A stretch of DNA of 64,000 bases from Lachnospiraceae bacterium. Its GTDB lineage: Bacteria; Bacillota; Clostridia; Lachnospirales; Lachnospiraceae. The notes below the pieces were generated by a model, which ran no database searches, had not been told where the DNA came from, and was given only the letters and a program-made list of their open reading frames with translations. This document shows, piece after piece, positions 19,983 through 23,201 of this stretch (within the stretch, counting starts at the first letter, position 1; each line of letters begins with the position of its first letter). The stretch lies in assembly GCA_024696005.1 (NCBI GenBank), contig JAILHF010000049.1, positions 1-64,000 of the forward strand, in the 5' to 3' direction. Made by a program: the position numbers and the translations under genes.

Positions 19983-20498
19983 ATGGCGGAAGAAATTTTG
20001 ACACTGATGGCAGATCTGGATTTTGAAAACCAGGTCCGGATGTCCGGCTGGTATGATGCTTTGAAGATGGCGGGCTTTGGCGGTCAGCAGACCCCGGGTC
20101 TTCCTTATCATATCAGCATGGCTACGTTTTCCGTGGATAAGGAAGCGGAAGCAATCGAGATCACAAAGAAAGCTGCAGAGGAATTTTCTTCTTTTTCCCT
20201 GGACTTCAGTCATATCGGAATCTTTCCGGGAGGCAAGGTTCTGTTTTGCGCGCCGGAACGAAATGCGCAGATCGAAGCGCTTCATGAGGCCTGTGACCGG
20301 GAATCCATTCATCCTTTTCCCTGGACGCCGCATGCAACAATGCTGATCGATGAGCCGGATGTGATATGCGCTGCACTGCCGGTATTTCTGAAATCATTTT
20401 CTCCGTTTACCGCCAGGATCGCCAGACTGCATCTTTGTGCTTTCTGGCCAACGAGGGAAATACTGTCGCTGGATCTGAAAAAAACGGGCGGAAAATAA
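19983..20498 (+). CDS. 2'-5' RNA ligase/2H phosphoesterase-like protein
   Basis: A 171-residue two-histidine phosphoesterase. The paired motifs are YHISMAT near residue 43 and PHATMLI near residue 120, matching Hx(S/T)x. The family includes LigT-type ligases and cyclic phosphodiesterases acting on RNA 2',3'-cyclic ends or on cyclic oligonucleotides; the substrate here is unknown. It is preceded by AAAGGAGGATGACTC and likely co-transcribed with the following methyltransferase (11-nt gap). Confidence 0.75.
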   Translation: MAEEILTLMADLDFENQVRMSGWYDALKMAGFGGQQTPGLPYHISMATFSVDKEAEAIEITKKAAEEFSSFSLDFSHIGIFPGGKVLFCAPERNAQIEALHEACDRESIHPFPWTPHATMLIDEPDVICAALPVFLKSFSPFTARIARLHLCAFWPTREILSLDLKKTGGK

Positions 20499-20509
20499 GG
20501 AGAAAAATC

Positions 20510-21298
20510 ATGAACAGCAGAAAAGATATCGTAAGCGGATTTTATGATCAGATCGATGAAGACGGAAGGCTTCAGAGAACAAGACATGGCCAGCTGGAAT
20601 ATTTCACGACCATGCATTACATTCATCGCTATTTAAGCGAAGGAGCAAAGGTGCTTGAGGTTGGAGCGGGAACCGGAAGATATTCCATTGCTCTTGCAAA
20701 AGAAGGCTATGATGTGAGCTCTGTTGAACTGGTCGATCACAATCTTGAAATCCTCAGGGAAAACAGCAAAGAGATCGACAACATTTGTTCCTTTTCGGGA
20801 GATGCAACGGATCTGAGCAGATTTGCGGATGATTCCTTTGATGTGACGCTGGTTCTGGGACCGATGTATCATCTCTATGAACCGGAAGAAGTGAACCGTG
20901 CGATCGATGAAGCGATCCGCGTGACAAAAACCGGCGGAGTGATGCTCTTTGCATTCATCTCTATCTTTGCCATCATGTATGCAAACTATTTTTACGGAAA
21001 TTGGGCGGCAGGTGAGGAAGAAAACTTTACGGCCGATTACAAAGTAAGGCATTTCAAGGAGCAGCTCTTTACCGGATATGAGTTGGAGGAATTTGAAGGT
21101 CTGTTCCGGGAAAAGAAGGTGGAGTGGATCACGACCGCAGGTGTTGACGGTCTGCTGGAGCCTTTGGAGAAGCGTGAAGATTTTCGTTTTTCCGATGAGG
21201 ATTTCGAGGCGTTTGCGCGCTGGTATCTGCATTTTGCGGAGAAGCGGGATTTGCTGGGGATTACCAATCATTTGCTGTATATATGTCGGAAGGTTTAG
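20510..21298 (+). CDS. Class I SAM-dependent methyltransferase
   Basis: A 262-residue protein with the Rossmann methyltransferase motifs: VLEVGAGTGRYSIALA (motif I), SVELVDHN (acidic motif II), DATDLSRFADDSFDVTLVLG (motif III) and the TKTGGVMLFAFI loop. The N-terminus and the YHLYEPEEV segment resemble UbiE-like small-molecule methyltransferases. ATG 20510 follows AAGGAGAAAAATC. The substrate cannot be read from the sequence. Confidence 0.8.
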   Translation: MNSRKDIVSGFYDQIDEDGRLQRTRHGQLEYFTTMHYIHRYLSEGAKVLEVGAGTGRYSIALAKEGYDVSSVELVDHNLEILRENSKEIDNICSFSGDATDLSRFADDSFDVTLVLGPMYHLYEPEEVNRAIDEAIRVTKTGGVMLFAFISIFAIMYANYFYGNWAAGEEENFTADYKVRHFKEQLFTGYELEEFEGLFREKKVEWITTAGVDGLLEPLEKREDFRFSDEDFEAFARWYLHFAEKRDLLGITNHLLYICRKV

Positions 21299-21423
21299 GG
21301 AGATTCGCGGATTTCGGGAACGCCATGGTGTTCTCGAAACTGGCTCATAAAAAGAGCAGTTGTCATGGGTGAAGGGTATTCGCCTGATCCCTGCCGATCC
21401 CTTGCCGTGTAGTGAGCATGCGG

Positions 21424-21703
21424 CTTTGCGGGATGAGCAAAACAATAGGCGGAAAGAGCAGAAGACATAAGGGCCGGGCACGTCGCGGAGGAGCCCGTCA
21501 GCTCTTGGAGCTGCATGATGAGAATAGGGACGAGCCGCCATGGATGGCGGATCGAGCGAGAGCCAATACACGGAGGTATTGTCTCGAGCGGTCCCGGGCT
21601 GTACCCGGAATGAAAGCAGCGACTTAGAGCTGCGTGGCTCCGGAGTGGTGCCCGGACTTATGTACTTCTGCTCAGCACCATCCTCTATCCTCATCCCGCA
21701 AAG
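21424..21703 (+). ncRNA. Large structured RNA candidate (unassigned class)
   Basis: There is no convincing gene between 21299 and 21797. The stretch folds by nested perfect or near-perfect long-range stems. P1: 21424-21437 with 21690-21703 (14 bp, CTTTGCGGGATGAG). P2: 21456-21464 plus 21466-21471 with 21657-21662 plus 21665-21673 (15 bp, one internal loop). P3: 21474-21481 with 21648-21655 (8 bp). P4: 21490-21495 with 21636-21641. Inside are short hairpins at 21499-21513, 21535-21550 (CCGCC/GGCGG), 21564-21581 (CAATAC/GTATTG), ~21594-21608 and ~21617-21633. Nested closing of a ~280-nt multibranch is typical of ornate bacterial RNAs. I cannot assign a class; raiA-motif or HEARO-type RNAs are worth testing. 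The strand is inferred from its neighbours. Confidence 0.65.
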
Positions 21704-21727
21704 ACGGCTTGCGAACGAAACTATAGT

Positions 21728-21757
21728 TTGCTATTCTTTTAGAAGACTTGATATAAT
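21728..21757 (+). promoter_or_regulatory. mnmE promoter
   Basis: TTGCTA, an 18-nt spacer and TATAAT, about 40 nt before mnmE and just downstream of the structured RNA. Confidence 0.6.
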
Positions 21758-21797
21758 ACTGCATTCTTAACAAATACTTCTGTAACTCGGAGGGATC

Positions 21798-23201
21798 ATG
21801 AAACAGGATACCATTGCTGCGATTGCCACAGGGATGACTTCCGCCGGGATCGGGATCATCAGGGTGAGCGGCACGGAAGCCATAGATATTATAGATCGCA
21901 TATATCTTTCGAAGAACGGGAGAAAAGCATCGGAGCTTGAGGATCATAAGCTCTGCCTCGGAGATATCATGTCTCCGAAAGGCGAAAAGTTTGATGAAGT
22001 GCTTCTTTCCGTGATGCGTGCGCCGCATTCCTATACCGGAGAAAATACCGTCGAGATCAACTGTCACGGCGGGATTTATCTTTGCGCGAGAGTGCTTGCC
22101 CTGGTTCTTGCAAGCGGAGCAAGAATTGCGGAACCCGGCGAATTTACAAAGCGTGCTTTTTTGAACGGAAAAATGGACCTTTCGCAGGCGGAAGCCGTCA
22201 TGGATCTGATCCGCTCGGAAAACGATTTTGCAGCGAAAAATGCGCTCCGCCAGGTGGAAGGCGCGGTTTATGAGCGCATCAGTTCCCTGCGCGAAAAGAT
22301 CCTTCATGAACTTGCTTATATCGAAGCGGCTTTGGATGATCCCGAGCATTATGATCTTACGGATTATCCCGAGGAGCTGGATGGCAAGGTATGTGATTTC
22401 ATTGAGGAGATCGAGAAGATCCTTCTGGTTTCCAAAAACGGCAGGATACGGAAAGAGGGAATACGCACGGCGATACTCGGAAAACCGAATGCCGGAAAAT
22501 CTTCCGTTTTGAATCTTCTGGCCGGTCATGAAAGTGCGATCGTCACGGATATCGCGGGAACAACGCGCGATGCGATCGAGGAAAGTGTGCGCCTGGGAGA
22601 ATTGCAGTTAAACCTGATCGATACGGCAGGTATCAGAGATACGGAAGATAAAGTGGAGCAGATCGGTGTGGAAAAAGCAATACGGATCGCTGATGATGCG
22701 GATCTGATCTTTTTTGTGGCTGACAGTTCGGCTCCGATCGACGAAAACGACATACAGATAGCGGACAGGATAAAAGATAAGCGTATCATTCTGCTTTATA
22801 ACAAAACAGACCTGCACAGCTTGACCTCTCCGGAGGATATGTTACGACTATTTTCCGATAAAGCCGGGGAAGCCGGGAAGAGATACCCGCTGATCCCCAT
22901 TTCTGCCAAGAACGGCGAAGGTCTTGTTGACCTGCAGAGGACCCTGGAAGAGATGTTCCTTTCCTCGGTATCTTTCCTGAACGAAGATCTGATCCTGACC
23001 AATCTGAGGCAGCTGGAAGAATTACGTCTGGCAAAAGAAAGTCTTTATCTTGTTCTGAATGCGATCCGGAGTTTCATGACCGAAGACATTTTTGCGATCG
23101 ACTTATCAGATAGTTATAAACATCTTGGTTATATCATTGGGGAAGAAATGGGGGATGACCTGGCAGATAAGATCTTTTCCGAGTTCTGCATGGGCAAGTA
23201 G
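21798..23201 (+). CDS. mnmE: tRNA modification GTPase MnmE
   Basis: A 467-residue GTPase that works with MnmG to add the aminomethyl group to wobble U34. The N-terminal folate-binding domain begins MKQDTIAAIATGMTSAGIGI. The G domain, inserted in the helical domain, has GKPNAGKSS (P-loop), DIAGTTRDAI (switch I), DTAGIR (G3) and NKTD (G4). The C-terminus ends FCMGK, the variant of CIGK whose Cys is required. The start follows CGGAGGG. In many bacteria mnmG is next; here it lies 31 kb away. Confidence 0.96.
   Translation: MKQDTIAAIATGMTSAGIGIIRVSGTEAIDIIDRIYLSKNGRKASELEDHKLCLGDIMSPKGEKFDEVLLSVMRAPHSYTGENTVEINCHGGIYLCARVLALVLASGARIAEPGEFTKRAFLNGKMDLSQAEAVMDLIRSENDFAAKNALRQVEGAVYERISSLREKILHELAYIEAALDDPEHYDLTDYPEELDGKVCDFIEEIEKILLVSKNGRIRKEGIRTAILGKPNAGKSSVLNLLAGHESAIVTDIAGTTRDAIEESVRLGELQLNLIDTAGIRDTEDKVEQIGVEKAIRIADDADLIFFVADSSAPIDENDIQIADRIKDKRIILLYNKTDLHSLTSPEDMLRLFSDKAGEAGKRYPLIPISAKNGEGLVDLQRTLEEMFLSSVSFLNEDLILTNLRQLEELRLAKESLYLVLNAIRSFMTEDIFAIDLSDSYKHLGYIIGEEMGDDLADKIFSEFCMGK

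Follow-up and report, generated by a model that had tools for sequence, protein, structure and literature searches.

A dispersed, multi-copy TwoAYGGAY RNA of Lachnospiraceae as a candidate CsrA sponge

What is the gene-free stretch of about 500 nt that precedes mnmE on a Lachnospiraceae contig (JAILHF010000049.1), and does its position there matter? It occupies positions 21299-21797 of the window, by which we mean the whole stretch of 64,000 nucleotides that was analysed. An earlier note, made from the letters alone, had described it as a large multibranched structured RNA upstream of mnmE that could be placed in no known class. We propose that it is one copy of a dispersed, multi-copy, repeat-like RNA that binds CsrA and probably serves as a sponge for it, a reading to which we give a probability of roughly 0.55 on the sequence patterns described below.

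Identity and architecture of the RNA

Folding bore out the claim of a large structured RNA. The whole stretch reaches -213.9 kcal/mol (z -7.1; none of 100 shuffles folded as stably), 21426-21706 reaches -143.7 kcal/mol (z -9.1, 0 of 200 shuffles), and 21405-21718, which forms a long nested rod, reaches -159.1 kcal/mol (z -9.4, 0 of 100 shuffles). All four nested long-range stems were located where they had been placed, with lengths of 14, 9+7, 8 and 6 bp (Table 1). Inward of the 6 bp stem the rod continues with further helices of 7 and 5 bp, and two hairpins stand at its end. For the 5' flank, the minimum-energy fold predicts local hairpins at 21308-21342, 21343-21357 and 21367-21385, outside the conserved element.

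The proposed comparison with Rfam by cmscan identified the RNA. The region 21483-21648 matches RF01731, TwoAYGGAY, over the complete model of 168 positions, scoring 87.6 bits where the gathering threshold is 43 (E 1e-13). The RNA is a real member of this known family and not a new class, contrary to the first assessment. The ornate RNAs suggested for comparison (raiA, HEARO, ROOL and GOLLD) were ruled out by absent Rfam matches: none reached its gathering score in the window, and none appeared up to E 10 in 21280-21830. Clan CL00106 we take to be a grouping of CsrA-binding RNAs.

The window copy resembles the family in being full-length and in presenting two AYGGAY-type hairpin loops in a three-way junction. 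It differs in its second loop: loop 1 (AUGGAU) matches AYGGAY, whereas loop 2 (ACGGAG) is AYGGA ending in G; ANGGAN is satisfied by both. GGA occurs nine times in the core, in both loops and also outside them. A second difference is length, since the element is about 70-75 nt longer on each side in the form of long paired arms. The Rfam model covers the inner part only, and the arms (21424-21481 and 21648-21703) lie outside it save for one base. The ends of the whole element were judged visually by comparison with the genome's other copies of subfamily A (11 copies aligned), whose flanks differ outside it. A third difference, dispersal in many copies, is described here.

TwoAYGGAY was described by Weinberg et al. 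2010 (PMC2864571) and proposed in 2014 as a CsrA-binding sRNA of Clostridia (PMC4333381); additional covarying pairs have been reported (PMC7657543, PMC11701678), and the RNA is mentioned in PMC11661157. In the open-licence literature searched, we found neither a proven function of TwoAYGGAY nor a report of its many-copy dispersal and of its match to flagellin leaders.

Table 1. Features of the window copy and the adjacent promoter-like site
Feature	Position	Strand	Basis or remark
Whole element, subfamily A, ~315 nt	21407..21721	+	5' end GTGTAGTGAGCATGCGG, 3' end TTGCGAACGAAAC
TwoAYGGAY core, RF01731	21483..21648	+	cmscan 87.6 bits, model 1-168
Outermost long arm, 14 bp	21424..21437 / 21690..21703	+	fold; 90.8% paired in 11 copies
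Second arm, 9+7 bp with one bulge (15 bp in the earlier note)	21456..21471 / 21657..21673	+	fold, 11-copy alignment
Third arm, 8 bp	21474..21481 / 21648..21655	+	fold, 11-copy alignment
Fourth arm, 6 bp	21490..21495 / 21636..21641	+	fold, 11-copy alignment
Terminal hairpin 1, GCC[AUGGAU]GGC, CsrA-type loop, closing C-G	21537..21548	+	Rfam alignment, covariation, 118 cores
Terminal hairpin 2, CAAUAC[ACGGAG]GUAUUG, CsrA-type ANGGAN loop	21564..21581	+	Rfam alignment, fold, family pattern
Promoter-like site before mnmE, TTGCTA, 18 nt, TATAAT	21728..21757	+	10/12 consensus matches; downstream of the RNA

Copies and their genomic surroundings

The core ends 149 nt before mnmE and Rfam types the family as Cis-reg, both of which would suit a leader that regulates mnmE. 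The relatives speak against such a leader: mnmE was matched in 19 of the 30 genus genomes, the window's own included, and the RNA lay within the fetched 1.5 kb of mnmE at none of the 18 other loci. In 17 of these 18, jag was the closest on the upstream side among the five genes tested (about 1.3 kb separate jag and mnmE at L115 and L125), and at L128 a partial methyltransferase match was found instead. In addition, the promoter-like site lies between the RNA and mnmE. Because the 24 copies of this genome stand in varied gene contexts and 0 of 18 loci carry the RNA, the position upstream of mnmE is a coincidence, and we regard the probability of an mnmE leader as practically negligible. Between jag and mnmE the window's genome has what is presumably a LigT-like gene and a methyltransferase, followed by the RNA (names partly assigned by eye); 17 of the 18 relatives examined did not show these two genes (19983-21298) at that place.

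All 24 copies of the window's genome (3.75 Mb in 74 contigs) are full-length and above the cut-off, and they form two main subfamilies with different arms. The window's contig holds a second, divergent copy (G000:C68:66911-67071), about 2.9 kb past where the window ends. The genus sample contained 21 carriers among 30 genomes, and the relatives are often multi-copy too. For the wider samples, in which stricter filters were used and at most 17 (family) or 7 (class) candidates were scored per genome, carrier and copy counts are lower bounds: at least 21 of 150 family genomes carry the RNA, seven of them with 17 scored candidates, and in the class sample at least 36 of 391 genomes do so at E 0.001 and at least 27 above the cut-off. 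A pattern derived from one subfamily was found in 40 contig stretches, all of them from MAGs, of which 39 belong to Lachnospiraceae and one is titled "bacterium".

The genes next to the 24 copies, called with a purpose-written gene caller whose frames overlap the core in three cases, are arranged as (+,+) in 12, (+,-) in 4, (-,-) in 4 and (-,+) in 3, with one copy lacking a called upstream gene. Accordingly placed behind a same-strand gene are 16 of the 23 copies with a called one, the core sometimes lying only 12-70 nt after it. This would be expected of a cis-acting element, with each copy controlling or stabilising its own transcript through CsrA or another GGA-binding protein instead of acting as a sponge. 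However, the downstream gene is on the opposite strand in 9 of the 24 copies, 12 of the 24 are followed by a promoter-like site (at least 9/12; expectation from shuffles 2.1), and the bias is unmatched in a wider set of 149 distinct copies. There, the orientation relative to the upstream gene was the same in 36, opposite in 30 and unclear or too short to judge in 83, and relative to the downstream gene the same in 25, opposite in 33 and unclear or too short in 91. An orientation bias towards the neighbours was rejected on these counts, and a cis-acting role appears improbable. Promoters before the element gave a weak signal (4 of 24 window-genome copies, 1.6 expected), and no terminator run was seen by eye after it.

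Close pairs of copies (gap below 1 kb), counted by eye among the matches listed, comprised 13 divergent, 2 tandem and no convergent ones (divergent against convergent 13:0, p 2.4e-4; 12:0, p 4.9e-4, without the near-identical second pair of G166). The divergent pairs, arranged 5' end to 5' end, were seen in G086, G166, G168, G174, G037 and G008 (L091-L102) and in G355. They suit separate transcription or a larger palindrome.

MITE, ERIC and BIME elements are dispersed, mostly intergenic, long imperfect palindromes. TwoAYGGAY copies are likewise dispersed, mostly intergenic and palindromic, and one subfamily (G156/G160/G164/G167) is bounded by terminal inverted repeats some 26 nt long (GGATTCGGGTGTCAAAAGGTACCTTT); its copies are near-alike, with mostly unrelated flanks and a few sites shared between species. 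In the window's subfamily the ends show the paired arms only, with no separate terminal repeat. These likenesses, together with the number of copies, their unrelated flanks, the random-looking orientation in the 149 copies and positions that vary between species, argue for a selfish palindromic intergenic repeat of the MITE or ERIC type without any CsrA role, the loops and arms of which would be kept for its own copying, for example for recognition by a transposase. Against this, no target-site duplication was seen at the sites viewed, and the three viewed of 36 flagged rows included no clean pre-insertion site: the clearest presence/absence site is a deletion between short repeats that left the 3' end, not an insertion, and the second candidate empty site proved to be another spacer within a tandem run of paralogues. 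A plasmid or phage origin was rejected for the window copy, which gave no such match by blastn. Since stem covariation with persistent GGA loops and a G-U strand bias, described in the next section, also set the element apart from such repeats and point to selection at the RNA level, we consider a purely selfish repeat rather unlikely.

Pairing and loops across copies

Pairing in the nested stems reaches 96.3% among the 11 copies of subfamily A in the window's genome, compared to 34-45% after sliding by 1-3 columns. Because these copies are alike, their shuffles are still 95.1% paired, and the informative measure is double-sided change: six pairs changed on both sides, against 1.7 in shuffles. 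In the outermost arm three pairs changed on both sides, and its innermost pair is formed in only 4 of the 11 copies. For the three-way domain we used 28 diverse sequences picked by hand. Here pairing was 89.1% (58.3% shuffled, 32-46% slid), 163 cells were changed on both sides against 53, and the covariation score was 0.705 against 0.181 in shuffles. The hairpin stems covary strongly between copies. In all 28, GA in both loops and the C-G pair that closes loop 1 are invariant.

The arms were compared by their longest uninterrupted helix in 70 copies from 28 genomes, at most four per genome. The median was 17.5 for a copy's own arms and 8 for swapped arms, and 35 of the 70 copies lay above the 99th percentile of the swaps. 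In G086, own arms form uninterrupted helices of 21-30 bp (G-U allowed) in 10 of 10 copies examined, against at most 16 bp (median 8) when arms are swapped between copies of the same genome, and all 10 exceed every swap. The long-arm loci of this genome are L091-L094, L040 and L060. The helix measure replaced a gapped pairing over 110 nt because swapped arms scored high there too (up to 129, exceeded by 8 of 120 copies), which made that control uninformative.

G-U pairs outnumber A-C mismatches by 15:2 in the hairpins (p 0.002), 27:13 in the inner arms (p 0.04) and 102:77 in the outer arms (p 0.07), p values that are optimistic because the copies are related. This excess favours an RNA of the + strand, most clearly in the hairpins. 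Taken together, stem covariation, persistent GGA loops and G-U strand bias point to selection on an RNA.

The loops were surveyed in 120 copies from 28 genomes, namely all 24 from the window's genome, all listed copies of G168, G174, G156, G161, G176, G152 and G166, and some others; the set excludes L045 and L088 (repeats of fetched copies) and L047-L052 (G116, G034, G083, G023, G049, G134). After two repeated cores had been dropped, 118 distinct cores were counted, with stem pairs 1-3 paired by construction and some loops mis-assigned. Of these, 95 have GGA in the first loop and 103 in the second; the complete ANGGAN motif is present in 68 first loops and 90 second loops, and the closing pair is C-G in 113 (hairpin 1) and 102 (hairpin 2). 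The 24 copies of the window's genome split evenly at loop 1, with ANGGAN in 12 and a loop of five bases of the CGGA type in the other 12. Loss of GGA follows clades. All 4 G008 copies examined (of 7 listed) and the sole G096 copy have lost it in both loops; loss in loop 1 is seen in G022, G160 (5/5), G164 (1/1), G156 (3/4) and G167 (6/7), the remaining copy of the last two being unassignable in each case. The loops of these GGA-less copies (G008, G096, G022 and the G156/G160/G164/G167 subfamily) are altered to the CGA type. Structure, covariation, GGA loops and the spread of copies are all in silico observations.

CsrA as the candidate partner

The C[ANGGAN]G hairpin is a reported type of CsrA site, and it is found in the organism's flagellin leader and in most of the relatives' leaders examined. 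In the window's genome this leader carries the hairpin GCGGC[AAGGAU]GUCGC at -38, followed by another ANGGA at -15. ANGGAN hairpins with four or more pairs occur in 7 of 9 flagellin leaders, compared to 3 of 101 other genes of the window's genome near the start, where the nine leaders were listed at three or more pairs and read to +60, and the control genes at four or more pairs to +12. Leaving out G037, in which the hairpin lies past the called start, gives 6 of 9 (p 3.1e-6). The three control hairpins are all ATG-GAT at the called start, and one falls within a copy of the RNA. A later set added 17 distinct leaders, 13 of which have the ANGGAN hairpin at -34 to -39 (7 of the 20 loci had no flagellin match, and 2 of the 19 rows repeat a leader). 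This layout, an AAGGAU-type site plus a second GGA site, agrees with that of B. subtilis hag, which has two CsrA sites in its leader, and with the predicted one of C. difficile fliC, where TGACAAGGATGT is predicted as one site (PMC8523840). Unlike those mRNA targets, the RNA studied here is dispersed.

One csrA above the cut-off is present in the window's genome (91.5 bits, on C6), adjoining fliW and other flagellar genes. We take the row to be flgL-fliW-csrA-flaG, with flgL and flaG as putative assignments. A csrA gene at the motility locus is also described for Eubacterium and Roseburia genomes in PMC3720852. Across the family sample, CsrA was found in 21 of 21 carriers, a lower bound for carriers, and in 59 of 129 non-carriers (p 4.7e-7, which is optimistic because the genomes are related). 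At genus level there is no link, with CsrA in 17 of 21 carriers and 8 of 9 non-carriers (p 1.0). G143 has a divergent CsrA only (56.3 bits), and G150 was counted as positive through a 20-position fragment only. Divergent CsrA genes (about 89-109 aa) lie directly upstream of flagellin at six of eight loci (L103, L104, L106, L107, L109, L110); the other two had no flagellin match.

A CsrA match is missing in four carriers, G168 (100% complete, 11 copies), G174 (97%), G156 (88%) and G161 (92%), all of which have flagellin. Of these, G168 and G174 possess a FliW gene, next to which csrA was not seen, and lack an flgL match, G156 has neither a FliW nor an flgL match, and G161 has an flgL match and no FliW. 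G168 and G174 keep GGA in the RNA loops as well as ANGGAN hairpins in a flagellin leader, and therefore a CsrA may have been overlooked in them. The FliW genes without adjacent csrA at L170-L172 (G150, G168, G174) stand next to a gene that by eye looks von Willebrand-type. Carriers that keep GGA loops without a CsrA match could also be explained by a different protein that recognises GGA hairpins and binds the loops. The presence of CsrA in every carrier of the family sample and of the same hairpin type in flagellin leaders argues against such a protein, which we judge very unlikely.

The reading of the RNA as a CsrA-binding element has evidence against it as well: 4 of 21 genus carriers have no CsrA match, GGA is lost clade by clade, half of the window-genome copies have the five-base CGGA type as loop 1, and there is no evident promoter ahead of the element. 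The flagellin leaders found in G008, G022, G164 and G167 keep GGA though the RNA copies of these genomes lose it.

In the CsrA sponge that we propose, the RNA would form a long rod that ends in a three-way junction bearing two hairpins, the loops of which usually contain GGA, often as C[ANGGAN]G. We infer from these sequence patterns that the copies are transcribed, bind CsrA and titrate it. One CsrA dimer would grip both loops, and the pool of copies would titrate CsrA, so that flagellin and other CsrA-bound mRNAs would be freed for translation. The rod arms would serve as a scaffold in which pairing is conserved more than sequence, and the element may spread or duplicate like a palindromic intergenic repeat. 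CsrB/CsrC and RsmX/Y/Z are products of dedicated genes, one or a few in number, and each carries many loops. In contrast, the element here is dispersed, each copy has two main loops, and 24 copies are present in the window's genome; it shares with those sponges (named in PMC4333381) several GGA hairpin loops and the proposed titration of CsrA. A more far-reaching version is possible and, in our view, doubtful: a self-spreading, genome-wide CsrA sponge of Lachnospiraceae, in which the RNA would mimic the flagellin leader, copy number would set the CsrA threshold of the flagellar checkpoint, and the arms would drift while keeping their complementarity within each copy.

TwoAYGGAY emerges here as a high-copy dispersed element with a concrete candidate partner, CsrA; the CsrA idea itself was published in 2014 (PMC4333381). 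The copy number, the match to flagellin leaders, the link to CsrA with its exceptions and the GGA-less copies make this idea directly testable. Lachnospiraceae include common gut bacteria, and their flagellin is an immune signal. If the sponge reading is true, a repeat family would act by dosage on a global regulator in these bacteria.
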